From contig NZ_JBCFYD010000002.1 in assembly GCF_038594945.1 (NCBI RefSeq), positions 744,001 through 808,000 of the forward strand: DNA of 64,000 nt, given 5' to 3'. The notes beneath the pieces were generated by a model, which was given only the letters and a program-made list of their open reading frames with translations, was not told the DNA's origin and ran no database searches. Position 1 is the first letter of the stretch. Each line of letters opens with the position of its first letter. Positions 2,093-10,515 of the stretch are shown piece by piece. The position numbers and the translations under genes are program-made. The DNA comes from Fodinibius sp. Rm-B-1B1-1. Lineage in GTDB: Bacteria; Bacteroidota; Rhodothermia; Balneolales; Balneolaceae.

Positions 2093-2123
2093 TTGATTTT
2101 CGCCTTGTCGGATACTATCTTCA
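2093..2123 (+). promoter_or_regulatory. Candidate trp operon promoter
   Basis: TTG at 2093-2095, a 20-bp spacer and TATCTTCA at 2116-2123 have the same geometry as the rpsO promoter of this window and fit the Bacteroidota consensus TTG-N19-21-TAnnTTTG. A sigma70-style reading (TTGTTG, 17 bp, TACTAT) overlaps it. Only 7 nt separate the box from the leader-peptide ATG at 2131, so the mRNA would begin at or next to that ATG. Confidence 0.5.
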
Positions 2124-2130
2124 CTCCGTT

Positions 2131-2208
2131 ATGAAAAAATCAGCTCATAAAAATATCAATTGGTGCTGGCCTGTGAAGCAACATACACAGGCAGTGGCAT
2201 TTTTATAA
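2131..2208 (+). CDS. trpL: trp operon leader peptide (25 aa, Trp-Cys-Trp)
   Basis: ATG to TAA gives a 25-residue peptide, MKKSAHKNINWCWPVKQHTQ followed by AVAFL, with Trp at positions 11 and 13. The Trp codons (2161-2163 and 2167-2169) sit at the base of a hairpin whose alternative partner forms the terminator described below, and trpE follows. This is the layout of a ribosome-stalling leader: when charged tRNA-Trp is scarce the ribosome stops at the WCW codons and prevents the first hairpin. No Shine-Dalgarno sequence is visible, consistent with near-leaderless translation. The peptide itself probably has no function after synthesis. Confidence 0.85.
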   Translation: MKKSAHKNINWCWPVKQHTQAVAFL

Positions 2209-2270
2209 GCTGAATTGATCCAAAGAATTATTGAGAGCCCACTGCAGGAAACTGGAGTGGGCTTTTTTGT
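2169..2270 (+). promoter_or_regulatory. trp transcription attenuator (hairpins 1:2, 2:3, 3:4)
   Basis: Hairpin 1:2 pairs GCCTGTG (2169-2175) with CACAGGC (2186-2192), 7 bp, beginning at the second Trp codon. Antiterminator 2:3 pairs GCAGTGG (2191-2197) with CCACTGC (2239-2245), 7 bp. Terminator 3:4 pairs AGCCCACT (2236-2243) with AGTGGGCT (2256-2263). Hairpins 1:2 and 2:3 share bases, as do 2:3 and 3:4, so they exclude each other exactly as in the E. coli trp attenuator. Expected behaviour: high Trp-tRNA, terminate; low Trp-tRNA, read through into trpE. Confidence 0.88.
2236..2270 (+). terminator. Attenuator terminator upstream of trpE
   Basis: A perfect 8-bp GC-rich stem (2236-2243 with 2256-2263) with an inner CAG-GAAA-CTG stem-loop, followed directly by six T (2263-2268). 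This is a standard intrinsic terminator, placed 66 bp before the trpE start. Its function depends on the alternative pairing in the attenuator entry. Confidence 0.88.
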
Positions 2271-2335: not shown

Positions 2336-3805
2336 ATGGATTTAGAAGACTTTAAAAAATTAACAAAGAATTATACGGCAGTACCGGTGTATCGTCGGCT
2401 CATGGCCGATGTTTTAACTCCGGTTTCATTGTTTCTGTCACTCCGAAAAGAAGCTCGTTATCCTTTTTTGCTGGAATCAGTGGAAGGGGGAGAACAGGTG
2501 GCCCGGTATTCTTTTCTGGGTCGTAATCCATATCAAGTGCTACAATATGATGGAGAAGCAGTAACGCTGGAATCAGAAGGAAGGACACAGAATCTTGAAG
2601 AATCTTATTTCGATGCACTGAAACGGTTGACGACGCAGCACAGTGAGCCTGAAATTCCCAATTTGCCGCGGTTGACGGGTGGAGCTGTTGGGTTTTCTTC
2701 TTATGATACCGTTCGGGAAGTGGAGCAACTGGAGGATGCTCCGGAAGATGATCTTAATATCCCGGAGGCTATTTGGGCGTTTTATGATGAAGTGTATGCC
2801 TTTGATCATGTGAAACAGCAGGTAATCATCATCAAAACAGTGTTTACGGATAACAATTCCTCACCTGCAAAGCTTTTTGATGAGGCTCAGCAACGATTGG
2901 ACGACATGGAAGAGTTGGTATATCGGCCGGAACGATCGACTGATTCATTTTCTATTGAGCCGGATAAGTTGTCCAGCAATATTGACCAGCCTGAGTTTGA
3001 GGCAATGGTCCAAAAAGCAAAGGAGTATATTTACGAGGGTGATATTTTCCAGGTGGTCTTATCGCAGCGATTTGAAACAGATTTCAGCGGAGATCGTTTT
3101 ATGTTATACCGTGCCTTGCGGATGGTTAATCCGTCGCCGTATTTATTTTTTCTTGATTTCGATGATTTTGGGCTCGTTGGTTCGTCTCCGGAAGTGTTGG
3201 TACGTGCTCAGGATGAAACGGCACAATTACTACCCATTGCGGGGACTCGTCCCCGTGGGGAAACTCCGGAAGAGGATTTGGAGCTGGAAGAGGATCTTAA
3301 AAATGATCCCAAGGAGATTGCTGAGCACGTGATGCTGGTTGATTTGGGTCGTAATGATTTGTCGCGTGTCTGTAAGCCAGCCACAGTTAAGCCTGTTCGC
3401 GAGCAGGTGATTGAACGGTATTCGCATGTAATGCACATCGTCTCGGACGTAAAAGGAAAACTGGCTGAGGATAAAACAGCAGTAGATGCACTCAAATATT
3501 GTTTTCCGGCAGGAACGGTCAGCGGGGCGCCTAAAATTCGTGCCATGGAAATTATTGATGAGTTGGAACCAACCAAGCGTGGTCCATATGCAGGGGCTGT
3601 TGGCTACTTCGATTTTTCTGGCAATATGGATACCTGCATTGTGATTCGCACGATGCTTGTCACGGATTCAAAAGTGTATATTCAGGCTGGGGCCGGCATT
3701 GTGGCCGACAGTGATCCAGAAAAAGAATATGTAGAAACACAAAACAAGGCCGGTGCGCTGGTTGAAGCACTTAGCGTAGCGCTGTCGATAACGGATGATA
3801 ATTGA
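2336..3805 (+). CDS. trpE: Anthranilate synthase component I
   Basis: A 489-residue protein that makes anthranilate from chorismate using ammonia supplied by TrpG. The N-terminal domain carries LLES (residues 45-48), the conserved tryptophan feedback-binding motif of TrpE, which argues against a PabB assignment. The C-terminal chorismate-binding domain is clear: IAGTRPRGETPEEDLELEED, then LVDLGRNDL, FPAGTVSGAPKIRAMEIIDE and GAGIVADSDPEKEY. The start is the ATG 14 bp after the palindromic repeat and 66 bp after the attenuator. It is the first structural gene of the operon, so it should be controlled both by attenuation and by allosteric inhibition. Confidence 0.96.
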   Translation: MDLEDFKKLTKNYTAVPVYRRLMADVLTPVSLFLSLRKEARYPFLLESVEGGEQVARYSFLGRNPYQVLQYDGEAVTLESEGRTQNLEESYFDALKRLTTQHSEPEIPNLPRLTGGAVGFSSYDTVREVEQLEDAPEDDLNIPEAIWAFYDEVYAFDHVKQQVIIIKTVFTDNNSSPAKLFDEAQQRLDDMEELVYRPERSTDSFSIEPDKLSSNIDQPEFEAMVQKAKEYIYEGDIFQVVLSQRFETDFSGDRFMLYRALRMVNPSPYLFFLDFDDFGLVGSSPEVLVRAQDETAQLLPIAGTRPRGETPEEDLELEEDLKNDPKEIAEHVMLVDLGRNDLSRVCKPATVKPVREQVIERYSHVMHIVSDVKGKLAEDKTAVDALKYCFPAGTVSGAPKIRAMEIIDELEPTKRGPYAGAVGYFDFSGNMDTCIVIRTMLVTDSKVYIQAGAGIVADSDPEKEYVETQNKAGALVEALSVALSITDDN

Positions 3806-3920: not shown

Positions 3921-3952
3921 ATTATATAGATAAGAGTAAAGAAAAAAGGCAG

Positions 3953-4023
3953 TGTCATGCTGAACTTATTTTAGTACATCAAAGAATAAAGTTGATAGAT
4001 CCTGAAATGAATTCAAGATGACA
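3953..4023. repeat. Two facing copies of the CATCCTGA palindromic repeat
   Basis: A diverged forward copy (TGTCATGCTGAACTTATTTT, 3953-3972) faces an inverted copy (3996-4023) whose reverse complement begins TGTCATCTTGAATTCATTTC and ends AGGATCTA. Together they could fold into one long hairpin, like the paired REP arrangement called BIME in enterobacteria. The element is 46 bp before trpS. Confidence 0.65.
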
Positions 4024-4069: not shown

Positions 4070-5059
4070 ATGAAAACAATATTATCAGGCATACAATCGT
4101 CAGGAAAACTTCATCTGGGTAACTATTTTGGAGCTTTGCGTCAGCATATCCAGATGCAGGAGGAAGGCGACGCTTTTTACTTTATAGCGAACTACCACTC
4201 ATTAACTTCTATTAACGACGGTGAAGAAATTTACCAGAATACTATTGATGTAGCGCTCGATTACCTGGCACTGGGGTTAGATCCCAATAAAGCCACGTTT
4301 TTTGCCCAGAGTGATGTGCCCCAACACGCGGAATTAGCTTGGATTTTAGGCACGTTTTGTCCTGTAAGTTTGATGGAGAAGGGCGTGGCGTATAAGGATA
4401 AAGTTGCCCAGGGATTGAATCCCAATATAGGGTTGTTTACTTATCCGATTTTGCAGGCCGCTGATATCCTGATGTATAATGCCGATTTGGTTCCCGTAGG
4501 GCAGGATCAGAAACAGAATATTGAAATTTGTCGCGATTTAGCTGGCAAATTTAATCATAATTATGGGGATGAATACCTAAAGTTACCTGAACCACATATT
4601 TTGGAATCGGTGGCGGTTGTGCCTGGGGTCGACGGACAGAAGATGAGCAAGTCCTATGGAAATACTATTGGCATTTTTGATGAAGGGAAAGAGTTGAAGA
4701 AGAAGGTAATGTCAATCCAGACCGATTCTACACCGTTGGATGAACCTAAAGATCCGGAAAGTTGTAATGTATTTGCATTGATTAAACTTTTTGCGGATGA
4801 AGAGAAGAAGAATGAGATCGCCGAGAAGTATCGGGCGGGTGGATACGGTTATGGGCATGCAAAGAATGAGTTATTGGGTATGATTGAAGAGTATTTTGCG
4901 GAAGCCAGAGAACGGCGAAAAGAGCTGTCGCAGGACTTGGATACTGTTCGTGACATCCTTAGAGAAGGAGGGAAGAAAGCCCGCGAACGTGCCGAGGAAG
5001 TGATGGAGCCGGTACGTGAGGCCACTGGCTTATTTAAAACATATGATTTTACGAGTTAA
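4070..5059 (+). CDS. trpS: Tryptophanyl-tRNA synthetase
   Basis: A 329-residue class Ic synthetase that attaches Trp to tRNA-Trp. The HIGH-type motif is HLGN (residues 15-18), the KMSKS motif is intact (191-195), and GQD in PVGQDQKQNIE is the usual ATP/Trp-site segment. The length equals the common bacterial TrpRS. It lies inside the trp operon between trpE and trpG, separated by repeat-filled gaps of 264 and 106 bp. Its product sets the level of charged tRNA-Trp, the signal read by the upstream attenuator. No other trpS is visible in the window. Confidence 0.96.
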   Translation: MKTILSGIQSSGKLHLGNYFGALRQHIQMQEEGDAFYFIANYHSLTSINDGEEIYQNTIDVALDYLALGLDPNKATFFAQSDVPQHAELAWILGTFCPVSLMEKGVAYKDKVAQGLNPNIGLFTYPILQAADILMYNADLVPVGQDQKQNIEICRDLAGKFNHNYGDEYLKLPEPHILESVAVVPGVDGQKMSKSYGNTIGIFDEGKELKKKVMSIQTDSTPLDEPKDPESCNVFALIKLFADEEKKNEIAEKYRAGGYGYGHAKNELLGMIEEYFAEARERRKELSQDLDTVRDILREGGKKARERAEEVMEPVREATGLFKTYDFTS

Positions 5060-5165: not shown

Positions 5166-5747
5166 ATGATTTTAATAATCGACAATTACGATTCTTTTAC
5201 TTATAACTTGGTACATATTGTTGCGGAGTTTACTGATGACTATAAAGTAGTCCGCAATGATGAGCTCACGGTGGATGAGGTGAAGGAATTAGGTCCCGAT
5301 AAAATACTTATATCGCCAGGTCCAGGCCGTCCCGTTGACGCCGGCATTACTGAGCCGGTCATTAAAGAGTTGGGGGCCTACACACCTATTTTAGGCGTAT
5401 GCCTTGGTCATCAGGCCATCGGTGAAGTATTTGGTGGAAAAATAATTCATGCCCCAAAATTGATGCATGGAAAAACATCTCTGATTAAACACGATGGGAA
5501 ATCAGTATTTCAAAACATCCCCGATGATTTTATTGCTACGCGATATCATTCGTTGATTTTGGATCCTGACCACATACCTAATGAATTAGAGGTTTCTGCG
5601 CGCAGTGATGACAATGTGATTATGGGATTACGGCATCGTAAATATCCCCTTGAAGGTATTCAATTTCATCCCGAAAGTATTCTCACAAAAGAGGGACCAA
5701 ATCTTGTAAAAAATTGGCTTGAATTGGAATACAAAATAGCTGAATAG
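5166..5747 (+). CDS. trpG: Anthranilate synthase component II, glutamine amidotransferase
   Basis: A 193-residue class I glutamine amidotransferase. The nucleophile is Cys79 in GVCLGHQAIG, and the catalytic His168 and Glu170 lie in GIQFHPESI. The oxyanion-strand motif ISPGPGRP is at 49-56. It hydrolyses glutamine and channels ammonia to TrpE. The size is that of a stand-alone TrpG, not a TrpG-TrpD fusion. It might also serve PabB elsewhere in the genome, as in Bacillus, but its place in the operon makes the Trp role primary. Confidence 0.95.
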   Translation: MILIIDNYDSFTYNLVHIVAEFTDDYKVVRNDELTVDEVKELGPDKILISPGPGRPVDAGITEPVIKELGAYTPILGVCLGHQAIGEVFGGKIIHAPKLMHGKTSLIKHDGKSVFQNIPDDFIATRYHSLILDPDHIPNELEVSARSDDNVIMGLRHRKYPLEGIQFHPESILTKEGPNLVKNWLELEYKIAE

Positions 5748-5787: not shown

Positions 5788-6828
5788 ATGCATAAGGTTA
5801 TAGAATTTAGTTCAATATTAGATAAGTTAGTTCGTCGGGAAGACCTCAATGGAAATGAGGCGGAAAGTGCACTGCAGAGAATCATTAGTGGAGAAGTGCC
5901 CAACGAGCAAGTTGCTGCTTTTCTTACGGCTATGCGAACGAAAGGTGAAACCACAGCAGAACTTACTGCGTTTGTTCGTGTGATGCGTGATGCTGCCGTA
6001 AAACCAGAAGTTGATGTGGATGGAGCTGTCGACCTCTGTGGTACCGGGGGAGATAGCTCGGGAACGTTCAATATTTCAACGGCTTCAATGTTTGTGGTAG
6101 CCGGTGCAGAGGTGCCCGTTCTTAAGCACGGCAACCGAAGTGTATCCAGTAAGAGTGGTAGTGCTGATGTTCTGGAAGAGTTAGGGGCAGTGATAGATCT
6201 AGATAAAAGACAGGTAGAGCGGGTTTTTGAAGAAGCGGGACTTGTTTTCATGTTTGCACCTAATTTTCATCCGGCTATGAAGCACGTAATGCCGGCTCGA
6301 CGTACGATGGGCATTCGAACCTTTTTTAATATCCTTGGACCGTTGTTAAATCCAGCCGGGGTGAAGCGTCAGATGATTGGTGCTTACAGCAGGGCTGTGG
6401 CCAGAGAAATTGCTCATATCCTTGCGAATTTAGATACAGAGTTTGCTTACACGGTAAATGCTCATGATGGGTTGGATGAGGTGAGTCTGGCTGCTCAATC
6501 GGAGATATATGAGCTTAATCACAACATGGTGAAGGAATCGACAACTTTCGATCCCAGGTCGTTGGATTTTGAATGGACAGATTTAGAATCACTACAGGGG
6601 GGAGATGCTAAATACAATGCGAATATTATTCGTTCTATTCTGGATAATAACTCCACGCAAGCCCAGCGGGATGTCATTTTGTTAAATGCTACGTTCGGTA
6701 TTCATGCCTCGGGCAAAGTTGACCATTTGACTGAAGCACGCAAGTTGGCGGTAGAAAGCCTGAAATCTGGCAAAGCGAAAGAAGCGCTGAACAAGTATGT
6801 TGAAGCTTCAAATGATATTGCAAAATAA
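5788..6828 (+). CDS. trpD: Anthranilate phosphoribosyltransferase
   Basis: A 346-residue protein that transfers phosphoribose from PRPP to anthranilate. It shows the PRPP-binding DLCGTGGDSSGTFNIST motif, then KHGNRSVSSKSGSADVLEELG and the anthranilate-site region around HPAMKHVMPARRTMG. The N-terminal helical domain is complete. The ATG is 40 bp after trpG and the stop is 9 bp before trpC, with AGGA ahead of the trpC ATG, so tight coupling to trpC is likely. Confidence 0.95.
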   Translation: MHKVIEFSSILDKLVRREDLNGNEAESALQRIISGEVPNEQVAAFLTAMRTKGETTAELTAFVRVMRDAAVKPEVDVDGAVDLCGTGGDSSGTFNISTASMFVVAGAEVPVLKHGNRSVSSKSGSADVLEELGAVIDLDKRQVERVFEEAGLVFMFAPNFHPAMKHVMPARRTMGIRTFFNILGPLLNPAGVKRQMIGAYSRAVAREIAHILANLDTEFAYTVNAHDGLDEVSLAAQSEIYELNHNMVKESTTFDPRSLDFEWTDLESLQGGDAKYNANIIRSILDNNSTQAQRDVILLNATFGIHASGKVDHLTEARKLAVESLKSGKAKEALNKYVEASNDIAK

Positions 6829-6837
6829 GGAAGTACG

Positions 6838-7653
6838 ATGCCAAATATTTTAGATGAAATAGTTGAACAGACAAAAATTGATCTTAAAAAGCGAAAGCGT
6901 AAAGTGAGCTTTAAAGATCTGGAAGATATGGAGCTGTTTGAGCAGACTCCACGAGATTTTTCCGAAGCATTGCAGCTTGATAGTGATGTAGCTGTAATAG
7001 CAGAAATTAAAAAAGCTTCTCCTTCGAAAGGATTGATTCGTCCTGATTTTGATCCCCGGAAAATAGCAGGGCAATACGAAGAAGGCGGTGCTTCAGCTAT
7101 TTCGGTATTGACGGATGAGCCGGCATTCAAAGGGAGTCTTGATTATTTAGAAATAGCCTCTAAAGAAGTTTCTATTCCCTTGTTGCGCAAGGATTTTATT
7201 GTTGATCCTTACCAGGTAAAAGAGGCTAAGGCATATGGTGCCGATGCGGTGTTGTTGATTGCTACAATTACGGAGGGGAGTCAGCTTAATGAACTATTGC
7301 ACGCAACAAAGGAGTTTGGTTTGCAGGCGCTTGTGGAATGTTATTCGGAAGAGGATATTGAATACATTACCTTTGAACATATTGATATTCTGGGGGTAAA
7401 TAATCGGGATTTACGATCATTCGAAGTTGATTTGCACCGTGGTATTGAGTTGTTGCATAAAGCTCCTGAAGATACGGTGCTTGTTTCCGAAAGTGGGCTG
7501 AGTAGCTCCGATGATTTGAAGCTGCTTTTTGATGAAGGAATTCATGCAGCCCTGATCGGGGAGCACTTCATGTGCCAGTCTGATCCTGGTAAAGCAGTTA
7601 AGAATATGAAAATGGAATTACAGAAATTAATTAAAGAAGAAATAGCTGAATAA
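6838..7653 (+). CDS. trpC: Indole-3-glycerol-phosphate synthase
   Basis: A 271-residue TIM-barrel enzyme that closes the indole ring with decarboxylation. Visible motifs are AEIKKASPSKGLI (catalytic Lys and substrate phosphate loop), LLRKDFIVDPYQV (second catalytic Lys), GVNNRDLRSFEVDL and VSESGLSSSDD. The stop abuts the next start directly (TAA-ATG), so trpC and trpF are separate but translationally adjacent genes rather than the fused E. coli TrpCF. Confidence 0.96.
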   Translation: MPNILDEIVEQTKIDLKKRKRKVSFKDLEDMELFEQTPRDFSEALQLDSDVAVIAEIKKASPSKGLIRPDFDPRKIAGQYEEGGASAISVLTDEPAFKGSLDYLEIASKEVSIPLLRKDFIVDPYQVKEAKAYGADAVLLIATITEGSQLNELLHATKEFGLQALVECYSEEDIEYITFEHIDILGVNNRDLRSFEVDLHRGIELLHKAPEDTVLVSESGLSSSDDLKLLFDEGIHAALIGEHFMCQSDPGKAVKNMKMELQKLIKEEIAE

Positions 7654-8328
7654 ATGTTTGCAGATCCGGAAGAACGTACCAAAGTAAAAATTTGTGGAAT
7701 TACTTCGCTGGAAGATGCCCGATTTGTATCGGGAGCCTTAGCGCATTATATGGGATTTGTCTTTTATGAAGATAGTCCCCGTTATGTAACCCCGGCTAAG
7801 GCGGGAGCAATGATTAACTGGCTACATGGACCGGATTGTGTAGGTGTTTTCGTAAATCAGCCTCTTGATGATGTGAATATGATTGCTCGTCAGACGGGCA
7901 TAGACTTTGTACAGCTGCATGGTGATGAAAATCCTGATTACTGTTCGCTGGTGGAGAAGCCAGTAATTAAAGCTATCCACGTTGAGGAGGAAGACACTGC
8001 CTCAGATCTGAACAAGCGAATCGAACCGTTCCTGAATCATGTTGAATACTTGCTTTTTGATACGAAAGTAGATGGGAAATGGGGCGGTACCGGACAATCT
8101 TTTGATTGGTCTATGTTAGATAAAGTGGCACAGGGTGTACCATATTTTCTGGCGGGTGGACTAAATGTTGATAATATCCGGCAGGCCTGTAGGCAAGTAC
8201 ATCCGTATGCAGTGGATATTTCCAGTGGGTTGGAGTCATATCCTGGAGTAAAAGATTTCGATAAGGTGGATGCGTTTATGGAAGAGATGCGCGATATCTG
8301 GGAAAAGCAAGAGGTTGGTGATTTGTAG
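7654..8328 (+). CDS. trpF: Phosphoribosylanthranilate isomerase
   Basis: A 224-residue TIM-barrel isomerase (Amadori rearrangement of PRA to CdRP). VKICGITSLEDA near the N-terminus holds the catalytic Cys. FDTKVDGKWGGTGQSFDW holds the catalytic Asp and phosphate loop, and LAGGLN with AVDISSGLESYPGVKD completes the phosphate site. It starts with no gap after trpC. A copy of the 27-bp repeat separates it from trpB. Confidence 0.95.
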   Translation: MFADPEERTKVKICGITSLEDARFVSGALAHYMGFVFYEDSPRYVTPAKAGAMINWLHGPDCVGVFVNQPLDDVNMIARQTGIDFVQLHGDENPDYCSLVEKPVIKAIHVEEEDTASDLNKRIEPFLNHVEYLLFDTKVDGKWGGTGQSFDWSMLDKVAQGVPYFLAGGLNVDNIRQACRQVHPYAVDISSGLESYPGVKDFDKVDAFMEEMRDIWEKQEVGDL

Positions 8329-8366: not shown

Positions 8367-8393
8367 TGTCATCCTGAACTTGTTTCAGGATCT
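8367..8393. repeat. 27-bp palindromic intergenic repeat, copy 2
   Basis: All 27 bases are identical to 2296-2322, including the 8-bp stem ATCCTGAA/TTCAGGAT. It lies 18 bp before trpB. Perfect identity of two copies about 6 kb apart in one operon suggests recent spread or gene conversion. Confidence 0.75.
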
Positions 8394-8411
8394 ATTAGAC
8401 AAAATTTGATT

Positions 8412-9599
8412 ATGAAATACGATTTACCGACAAAGGAAGGATATTACGGCGAATTTGGGGGCAAATTTGTCCCGGAGATTTTAATTCCCGTTTTAGAAGA
8501 GCTGGAAGAAGCCTATGAGCAAGCTTGGAATGACGTGAGTTTCCAGAAGGAGTATCGCCAGCTGCTCAATGAATATGTGGGACGTCCTACAAAGCTTACG
8601 TACGCTAATCGGCTTACCGATCATTATGGAAAGGCCAAGATTTACCTTAAGCGTGAGGATTTGTGCCATACTGGAGCGCACAAGATAAATAACGCTATTG
8701 GACAGATTTTGCTGGCCCAGCGTATGGGTAAGAATCGCATTATTGCAGAGACAGGGGCCGGACAGCATGGGGTAGCCACGGCAACAGCTTGTGCAAAGTT
8801 TGGCGTTGATTGTATTGTGTATATGGGCGCTGAAGATATGGAGCGCCAGAAGCTGAACGTTGAACGCATGCGTTTGTTGGGTACGGAAGTACGTCCCGTT
8901 ACCAGTGGCTCACAAACTTTGAAGGATGCTACCAACGAAGCAATTCGCGATTGGGTGACCAATGTTGAGGATACCTTTTATATTATCGGTTCGGTTGTGG
9001 GGCCGCATCCCTATCCCAAGATGGTGCGTAATTTTCATCGTGTGATAGGTGATGAAACACGTAGTCAGTTAGCCGAAGCCGAGGGACGAGAAATTCCCGA
9101 TTATTTGTTGGCTTGTGTGGGGGGCGGTTCCAACGCCATTGGGATTTTCTATCCTTTTATTGAAGATGAGTCGGTACAAATGTATGGACTCGAAGCCGCT
9201 GGATTAGGTGCTAATACTGATCAAACAGCAGCAACGCTTACCATAGGTCAACCCGGTGTGCTGCATGGATCTATGAGCTATTTACTACATAATTCCGAGG
9301 GGCAAATCCAGCTGGCACACTCTATCTCTGCCGGACTTGATTATCCGGGCATTGGTCCCGAGCACTCGTATCTTCATAAAACAAAGCGAGTGAACTACAA
9401 AGCAATTACCGATGGTCAAGCGATGGAAGGAGTGAAGCTTCTTTCCGAAACCGAAGGCATTATTCCTGCACTCGAAACGGCTCATGCAGTTGCGTATTTA
9501 GATGAGCTGATGCCCAAAACATCGAAAGATGAGATTGTTGTGCTTAATTGCTCCGGTCGCGGAGACAAAGATATGACCACTATTTCAAAAAATCTTTAG
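8412..9599 (+). CDS. trpB: Tryptophan synthase beta chain
   Basis: A 395-residue PLP enzyme that condenses indole with serine. PLP-binding Lys91 is in [13 protein letters not shown], the phosphate loop is GGGSNAIG, and the N-terminal [13 protein letters not shown] is the standard TrpB1 start. An in-frame TTG 6 bp upstream exists, but the ATG at 8412 gives the usual N-terminus. It is the TrpB1 type, which partners TrpA. A 103-bp repeat-bearing gap separates it from trpA. Confidence 0.96.
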
Positions 9600-9702: not shown

Positions 9703-10515
9703 ATGATTCAGACAGAAAATAGAGTAACGCAACTTTTTGAACGTCATGATGGCTCCGAAAAGATCATGAGCCTGTTTTTAACGGCTGGCTATCCTGATCT
9801 TGAAGCAACAGTTGATCTTATTTTAGGCTTCGAAGAAAATGGAGTAGATATGGTCGAGTTGGGGATGCCGTTTAGCGATCCATTGGCGGATGGACCAACC
9901 ATTCAATACTCCAGCAATGTAGCTATCGAGCAGGGTATTACGATGAAGAAAATCCTGCACATTGTAGAGCAGGTGCGGGAAAAGTCTCAGATTCCCATTA
10001 TTTTGATGGGCTACATTAACCCGGTGTTGCGGTATGGCGCAAAAGCATTTTGTGAAGATGCAGCTGAAGCCGGAGTTGATGGACTGATTATTCCGGATAT
10101 CCCCATAGAAGAATCAGGAATTCTGAAAGAAGAAGCGGCTAACAATGGGTTGCCAATTATTTATCTGGTGGCTCCGAATACGTCTGATAAACGAATGCGC
10201 AAGATTGATGAGGAATCACAGGGTTTTGTATACTGCGTGTCGGTTACGGGCGTTACAGGTGCTCGTGAAGGAGATGAAGTGGCAAAGTCAGTAGAACGCT
10301 TTATTAATCGCGTACAAAAAAATGTGACCCGTAACCCCAAAATGGTTGGGTTTGGCATTAAATCCTATGAAGATGCACAGCGTATAGCAGCAGATATGGA
10401 TGGCTTTATTGTGGGAAGTGCACTTATTGATACCATCCGAAGTCATTACCCTGAGAAGGGATGGAAAGATGAGGTGTTTGCATTTGTTAGAAGGTTGAAG
10501 TATGGTAAAGAGTAA
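9703..10515 (+). CDS. trpA: Tryptophan synthase alpha chain
   Basis: A 270-residue TIM barrel that splits indole-3-glycerol phosphate. Catalytic Glu52 and Asp63 are in VELGMPFSDPLADGPTIQ, and phosphate-binding motifs are VSVTGVTGAR and GFGIKSYED. It partners TrpB, which receives indole through the intersubunit tunnel. It is the last trp gene; a lipoprotein gene starts 23 bp later and may share the transcript. Confidence 0.96.
   Translation: MIQTENRVTQLFERHDGSEKIMSLFLTAGYPDLEATVDLILGFEENGVDMVELGMPFSDPLADGPTIQYSSNVAIEQGITMKKILHIVEQVREKSQIPIILMGYINPVLRYGAKAFCEDAAEAGVDGLIIPDIPIEESGILKEEAANNGLPIIYLVAPNTSDKRMRKIDEESQGFVYCVSVTGVTGAREGDEVAKSVERFINRVQKNVTRNPKMVGFGIKSYEDAQRIAADMDGFIVGSALIDTIRSHYPEKGWKDEVFAFVRRLKYGKE

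Follow-up and report, generated by a model that had tools for sequence, protein, structure and literature searches.

A probable ribosome-mediated attenuator upstream of the trp operon of Fodinibius sp. Rm-B-1B1-1 and its recurrence across Balneolales

How is the trp operon of Fodinibius sp. Rm-B-1B1-1 controlled? In the 64,000-nucleotide stretch of its genome analysed here (the window), an earlier note had described a complete trp attenuator upstream of trpE. The Escherichia coli trp attenuator combines neighbouring Trp codons with 1:2, 2:3 and 3:4 hairpins, and the window resembles this commonly described anatomy in its neighbouring Trp codons, its three hairpins and the order of the parts. 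It differs in that its leader is longer, with the stop codon past strand 2, in that trpS lies inside the operon and in that no Shine-Dalgarno-like site is seen by eye. Attenuation has reportedly been treated across bacteria by Lopatovskaya (2010). In the accessible text of their paper, Naville and Gautheret state that, apart from ermC, leader peptides had been known in Proteobacteria and Actinobacteria alone, and they extend the list to Firmicutes (PMC2965389). Judged from its sequence, the Fodinibius locus is very likely a ribosome-mediated transcription attenuator of the trp operon. The evidence consists of sequence, conservation, geometry, partial covariation and operon content; from it we infer leader translation, ribosome stalling, the start site, read-through, a single operon transcript and control of trpS.

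The elements described in the earlier note are present on the plus strand. The leader peptide reading frame, MKKSAHKNINWCWPVKQHTQAVAFL (2131–2208), contains the claimed 25 sense codons between its ATG at 2131 and a TAA at 2206–2208, and its two Trp codons (2161–2163 and 2167–2169) enclose a Cys codon, forming a putative Trp-Cys-Trp sensor (TGG TGC TGG, 2161–2169). Hairpin 1:2 is a 7-bp stem between strand 1 (GCCTGTG, 2169–2175) and strand 2 (CACAGGC, 2186–2192); it was said to start at the second Trp codon, and the first base of the stem is the last base of that codon (2169). The 7-bp antiterminator 2:3 was also found as described, with GCAGTGG of strand 2 (2191–2197) facing CCACTGC of strand 3 (2239–2245). 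The terminator hairpin 3:4 (2236–2263) pairs 2236–2247 with 2252–2263 through 11 strict pairs flanking one G.G mismatch, closes on a GAAA loop and runs into the six T read at 2263–2268. Strict helix energies are -11.2 (1:2), -9.3 (2:3) and -21.2 kcal/mol (3:4). The terminator as folded reaches -24.2 kcal/mol (z -5.87), as good in 0 of 200 shuffles, and the entire leader (z -6.05) folds better than all 200 of its shuffles. The region without strand 4 (2155–2245) folds in an ordinary way (z 0.13; equalled or bettered by 103 of 200 shuffles), which leaves the terminator as the source of the excess stability. Taken singly, the 1:2 hairpin of the window is matched by 0.5% of shuffles (0.005) and its 2:3 helix by 16 of 100, and the case for 2:3 as the putative antiterminator rests on comparison.

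The claim that the base overlaps force exclusive folding holds for one pair of hairpins and fails for the other. Strand 3 of 2:3 lies wholly within 3:4, which makes these two mutually exclusive, but the strict 1:2 and 2:3 helices overlap at G2191 and C2192 only, and the 1:2 stem can coexist with a 5-bp remnant of 2:3. The lowest-energy form of 1:2 is longer than the strict stem, the bases of the Trp codons themselves pairing with strand 2. At the middle sensor position the window species has TGC (Cys), and all 11 other members of the genus that were read have TGG; the leader of the sister species L004 is MKKSAHKNINWWWPVKQHTQAVAFL. In folding, the C of TGC pairs with strand 2 and lengthens 1:2, giving -16.0 instead of -13.1 kcal/mol. 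A sequencing error is possible at this codon; if the reading is true, the WCW of the window species against the WWW of its genus is a natural variant of the sensor codons.

Folding was computed for the states that a translating ribosome would impose. The free RNA adopts 1:2 and 3:4, a ribosome at the stop codon leaves 3:4, and masking strand 1 while strand 4 is absent yields 2:3 (-15.0). Masking strand 1 does not stop 3:4 from winning over 2:3 at equilibrium, and antitermination therefore has to be kinetic: the predicted hairpin prevails in each of the three ribosome states only when 2:3 is allowed to form ahead of strand 4. In the proposed mechanism, RNA polymerase would start a short way 5′ of the leader ATG, by a few bases, and a ribosome would load almost at the 5′ end. 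When charged tRNA-Trp is scarce, the ribosome would stall on Trp-Cys-Trp and cover strand 1, strand 2 would pair with strand 3 while strand 4 had yet to be transcribed, no terminator would form and trpE-trpS-trpG-D-C-F-B-A would be transcribed. When charged tRNA-Trp is plentiful, the ribosome would reach the stop codon at 2206 and cover strand 2, allowing 3:4 to form and transcription to end. An untranslated leader would fold 1:2 and likewise terminate.

The position of the putative promoter suggests that this RNA has almost no 5′ leader of its own. A -33-type TTG element (2093–2095, plus strand) is found 20 nt before a -7-type box, TATCTTCA (2116–2123, plus strand), recognized by its TAnnTTTG-like sequence pattern. 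According to the accessible text on Flavobacterium psychrophilum, the TAnnTTTG box of that bacterium lies at -12 to -5 (PMC9723704); if this spacing is valid here, the predicted +1 falls near 2128, three bases 5′ of the ATG. The leader transcript is thus predicted to be nearly leaderless, with a 5′ UTR of about 3 nt, and the functional unit probably begins at the promoter (2093). The arrangement recurs among 104 leader-bearing Balneolales loci. A TTG-N20-TAnnTT-like promoter 3–8 nt before an in-frame start codon (97 ATG, 3 GTG and 1 TTG) was detected in 101 of the 104 by a lenient test that picks the fitting start codon and is not independent of start assignment; shuffled upstream sequences pass in 30.4 of 104 on average (maximum 37, 20 rounds). 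The TTG-to-box spacing is exactly 20 nt in 100 of the 101 passing leaders, and 20 nt again in 99 of 104 when the box alone is searched freely. In 96 of 101, 9 or 10 codons precede the first Trp codon, placing it at codon 10 or 11. A palindrome just upstream of the promoter, TGGTTGATGTTTAATCAACCA (2062–2082), is picked out as terminator-like when read on the minus strand; it may terminate the upstream gene or be a regulator-binding site.

Conservation was assessed in the order Balneolales, where 128 genomes were searched, 120 had a trpE match and the upstream DNA was read at 114 loci (at least 288 nt each, median about 1 kb); G235, G250, G266, G280, G281 and G282 were left out as partial or ending at contig ends. 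The assignment of the locus to a Balneolota genome was borne out, since the nearest named trpE relatives are Balneolaceae, including Rhodohalobacter halophilus (72% identity) and Gracilimonas amylolytica (71%), and leader, terminator and spacing are conserved over nearly the whole order. The 19 Balneolales-like loci from the search for relatives are the same sequences as 19 of the 114 and contribute names, not extra evidence. An ATG reading frame with W.?W within 450 nt before trpE was found in 101 of 114 loci, or 101 of 105 when the genus g113 is set aside, against 86 of 2280 dinucleotide shuffles (3.8%) and 1 of 114 reverse strands. WWW occurs in 88 of 114 loci, against 1 of 2280 shuffles (0.04%) and 0 of 114 reverse strands. 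Admitting GTG and TTG starts raises the leader-bearing loci to 104, with the motifs WWW (88), WW (9), WWWW (3), WCW (2, the window and L134), WRW (1) and WMW (1, L195, probably a chance match). The ten loci with no Trp leader are nine of genus g113 and L176.

Attenuation predicts a rigid distance from sensor to terminator and a free one from terminator to gene, and this is what is seen. In 100 of 104 loci the terminator starts 50–78 nt past the first Trp codon (median 71, interquartile range 69–73), the other four having no terminator within the expected range, and the terminator-to-trpE distance runs from 10 to 221 nt. Outside its Trp codons the peptide varies among genera, and its length ranges from 13 to 27 residues. 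If the attenuator reading is true, trp operons across Balneolales rely almost invariably on classic ribosome-mediated attenuation, and the 104 leader-bearing loci form a clean comparative case for attenuation on a probably nearly leaderless RNA.

Base pairing in relatives was examined sequence by sequence and by alignment. The per-sequence stem test covered 99 of the 104 loci with a leader, namely those whose terminator was in range, with identical sequences counted once; removal of near-identical sequences left 83, of which 57 belong to family f1 (Balneolaceae) and form alignment A1, and 26 are others. A genus alignment (A2), in which three rows have guessed coordinates and L113 and L121 are without strand 4, served for inspection by eye only. 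In A1, 3:4 is paired in 95.7% of cells, with 67 doubly changed cells against a shuffle mean of 20.9, and 2:3 in 86.6%, with 15 doubly changed cells against 5.2 (16 when the helix is slid by -1). The covariation scores of 0.326 for 3:4 (slid maximum 0.080) and 0.147 for 2:3 (slid maximum 0.084) were reached by 0 of 500 shuffles, a control that related sequences can beat without structure. Two stricter measures, which count pairs or types of pair, do not rise above shuffles, being reached by 275 and 209 of 500 for 2:3 and by 254 and 83 of 500 for 3:4. Taken one sequence at a time, 62 of 99 loci have a 2:3 helix that no more than 5 of 100 shuffles can equal, the window not among them. For 1:2 the comparative support is weak: 69% of the A1 cells are paired, and its score of 0.119 is exceeded by two slid versions (0.131 and 0.130). 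The per-sequence test of 1:2 used 73 of the 99 loci, 26 being dropped as the motif was absent; 21 of the 73 beat 95% of shuffles (median 0.185), while strand 2 pairs with at least 3 bases upstream in 72 of 73 and, by another measure, with at least 4 in 90 of 99. The conservation in relatives that had been set in advance as the test of the attenuator was thus found for the Trp codons, 2:3 and 3:4 and was equivocal for 1:2.

The genes behind the terminator fit a tryptophan operon, all on the plus strand and each over its NCBIfam cut-off. They are trpE, anthranilate synthase component I (2336–3805; TIGR00564, 570.3 bits, cut-off 517.7), trpS, tryptophan--tRNA ligase (4070–5059; TIGR00233, 301.2 bits, cut-off 176.75), trpG (5166–5747; TIGR00566), trpD (5788–6828; TIGR01245), trpC (6838–7653; NF001377), trpF (7654–8328; NF002298), trpB (8406–9599; TIGR00263, scanned from 8412) and trpA (9703–10515; TIGR00262), in the order trpE-trpS-trpG-D-C-F-B-A. 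The trpS copy is the single strong match and the one clear trpS in its genome (97.72% complete); another, weak match (39% identity over residues 120–219, E 1.2e-6) is probably a related synthetase. Across Balneolales, trpE is followed by trpS before any other trp-type gene in 110 of the 111 loci with readable downstream DNA, at a median gap of 56 nt (largest 463 nt, in L149); L193 departs from this with trpG in that place, and three further loci end too early to be read. Within the roughly 1.2 kb read, trpS was found in 15 of 19 loci from other orders of the class, mostly 480–720 nt away and close by in two (66 and 88 nt), and was not seen after trpE in 60 loci from other classes of the phylum. 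Since trpS lies within the operon, low charging of tRNA-Trp would raise the charging enzyme and close a loop; if so, the gene for an essential tRNA synthetase answers to the very charging state that it sets. The E. coli pheST and Streptomyces trpRS1 synthetase genes are under leaders that sense their own charged tRNA; the window differs in that its only clear trpS shares an operon with biosynthetic genes. An identical 22-nt sequence, TCCTGAACTTGTTTCAGGATCT, an imperfect palindrome with 0.01 such repeats expected, occurs between attenuator and trpE (2301–2322) and between trpF and trpB (8372–8393), and by eye a similar stretch lies before trpS near 3950–4020.

Other explanations of the same elements were weighed. 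The hairpin at 2236–2263 might merely be the 3′ terminator of pssA, which ends at 2047 on the plus strand, with Trp codons nearby by coincidence. In the window this gene does precede the leader in the same orientation, but in the 0.3–1.5 kb read per family-f1 locus it was found in only 10 of 84, so that the attenuator goes with trpE; leader and terminator are present in most family-f1 loci with no detected pssA, at a near-constant distance from the Trp codons. With WWW reading frames in just one of the 2280 shuffles, this coincidence was rejected and is hardly credible. An intrinsic terminator in a 5′ UTR would also fit another sensor, acting on terminator or promoter: TRAP, a T-box, TrpR or a riboswitch. 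TRAP (PF02081) was detected in 0 of 126 Balneolales genomes while the positive control, Bacillus subtilis, was detected, and neither a T-box nor another regulatory RNA in the window reaches its Rfam gathering score. Seven of the 126 genomes do have TrpR-family matches at E <= 0.001, but just one match exceeds the cut-off, in another genome and close upstream of hisG. With no match to TRAP or a T-box and no over-cut-off TrpR in the genome of the window, these sensors were rejected, and we regard control by another sensor as very improbable. The one TrpR-family protein over the cut-off among the 126 genomes (G255:C5:174022-174267, E 3.9e-23) is encoded about 155 nt before a hisG domain on the same contig and, by its place, may regulate his rather than trp.

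Instead, a working leader might act mainly in trans, through its small terminated RNA or its peptide, a role reported for trpL of Sinorhizobium meliloti. Termination would yield a short, leaderless or almost leaderless RNA, like rnTrpL in the accessible part of its description (PMC7298713), where the RNA starts at the ATG of a leader encoding 14 amino acids; that system belongs to another phylum, and its start is reported there but only predicted in the window. What is kept in Balneolales is geometry and base pairing, whereas the peptide varies outside its Trp codons, and a trans output as the main function appears very improbable. For the attenuator acting in cis, the accessible main text on F. 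psychrophilum offers background, with ‘strong clues’ that operons for amino-acid biosynthesis are preceded by leader-peptide attenuators and with 5.5% of the examined mRNAs leaderless; that species is also of the Bacteroidota but of another class, and the term ‘trp’ is absent from that text (PMC9723704).

The novelty of a trp attenuator in this lineage is less than the earlier note implied. Rfam already holds RF01692 (Bacteroid-trp), titled as a tryptophan peptide leader RNA of Bacteroidetes, thus from the same broad phylum; the accessible main text of its source paper is, beyond an entry in Table 1, silent on tryptophan (PMC2864571). RF01692 matches L266, a comparison locus of the same phylum with a WWW leader before trpE, at 76.2 bits (cut-off 49). 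Under stricter filters, with which weak matches are lost, its cut-off was reached in 0 of 126 Balneolales genomes; three sub-threshold matches scored 30.3 and 30.1 bits on trpE leaders and 28.7 elsewhere. The window gives 18.5 bits with RF00513 (Trp_leader, cut-off 41), and filing the element under RF01692 or RF00513 was rejected on score. In other classes of the phylum, where 60 loci were read from 121 genomes with a trpE match, trpE has a WW or WxW leader in front of it in 40: 20 of 22 in L216–L237, which appear to be mostly Ignavibacteria, 0 of 18 in L238–L255 and 20 of 20 in L256–L275, which by the RF01692 match in L266 seem to be Bacteroidia. In the rest of the class, apparently Rhodothermia, Trp leaders in 14 of 19 loci look genuine on our own reading. 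The start-codon geometry of the promoter is shared by 13 of 17 candidate leaders from other orders of the class (control mean 1.9) and by 20 of 20 in L216–L237 (control 6.5); the Bacteroidia-like loci L256–L275, among them L266 with its RF01692 match, differ from Balneolales in being, at 7 of 20, not above the shuffled mean of 7.45. The mechanism is therefore known by prediction in the broader phylum, and what is added is the Balneolales case, supported across the order, the start-codon geometry and the linkage to trpS. No description of trp attenuation in Balneolota was found among the literature matches listed, in which subscription journals are thinly covered.

A broader reading is that Balneolales use a compact, fixed-distance attenuator on an almost leaderless RNA to govern the sole TrpRS gene of the cell along with Trp synthesis, perhaps beside leaders for other amino acids, including a Rho-type one for His. 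We advance this tentatively, with belief a little short of even; if it is true, tRNA-Trp charging sets both the tryptophan supply and its own charging capacity. In the genome of the window, the hisG locus L279 carries a His-rich leader reading frame, MQKQSLHISFHSHLHHGGWHRQ (reverse complement, 1175–1243). Such frames precede hisG in 17 of the 30 Balneolaceae loci read (L279 and part of L287–L310) from 55 genomes with hisG. The leader-to-hisG spacers of 16 loci (L311 left out) together contain 305 C and 87 G, and only one of the 16 has a hairpin that reaches -8 or better and is followed by a T-run; these leaders possibly act by Rho-dependent attenuation. At L280 (TPP-enzyme/ilvB-type; reverse complement, 1168–1400), also in the genome of the window, a 55-codon reading frame of mostly Ile, Leu and Val codons lies just before the ilv-type gene and is followed by a long hairpin seen by eye, GCCAGAGGTTAGAA with TTCTGACCTCTGGC, without a T-run; it is possibly a branched-chain leader acting on translation. 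In the same genome, neither a Phe-rich leader at pheA (L282) nor any leader in front of the second TPP enzyme (L281) was flagged; the two thrA-type loci (L283 and L284) seem to stop short of the start of their gene.

The nine g113 loci without a Trp leader (L155, L156, L160–L163, L165, which has the L044 sequence, L168 and L169) are from small-genome Balneolaceae. An Rfam search upstream of trpE gave no match at E 0.5 in L155, L161 and L162, and a pattern search of the genus gave few matches, in several genomes about as many as in the reversed control. All nine keep a terminator, ACCCACTTTTT with AAAAAGTGGGT and a T-run (with variants), about 100 nt before trpE, and share a conserved upstream element with CTCYAAAG. 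Outside these groups, a WWW leader, MELTIGKSDVRYYWWWYSYGRVMSTA, precedes trpE in L078, on a contig labelled Deltaproteobacteria.
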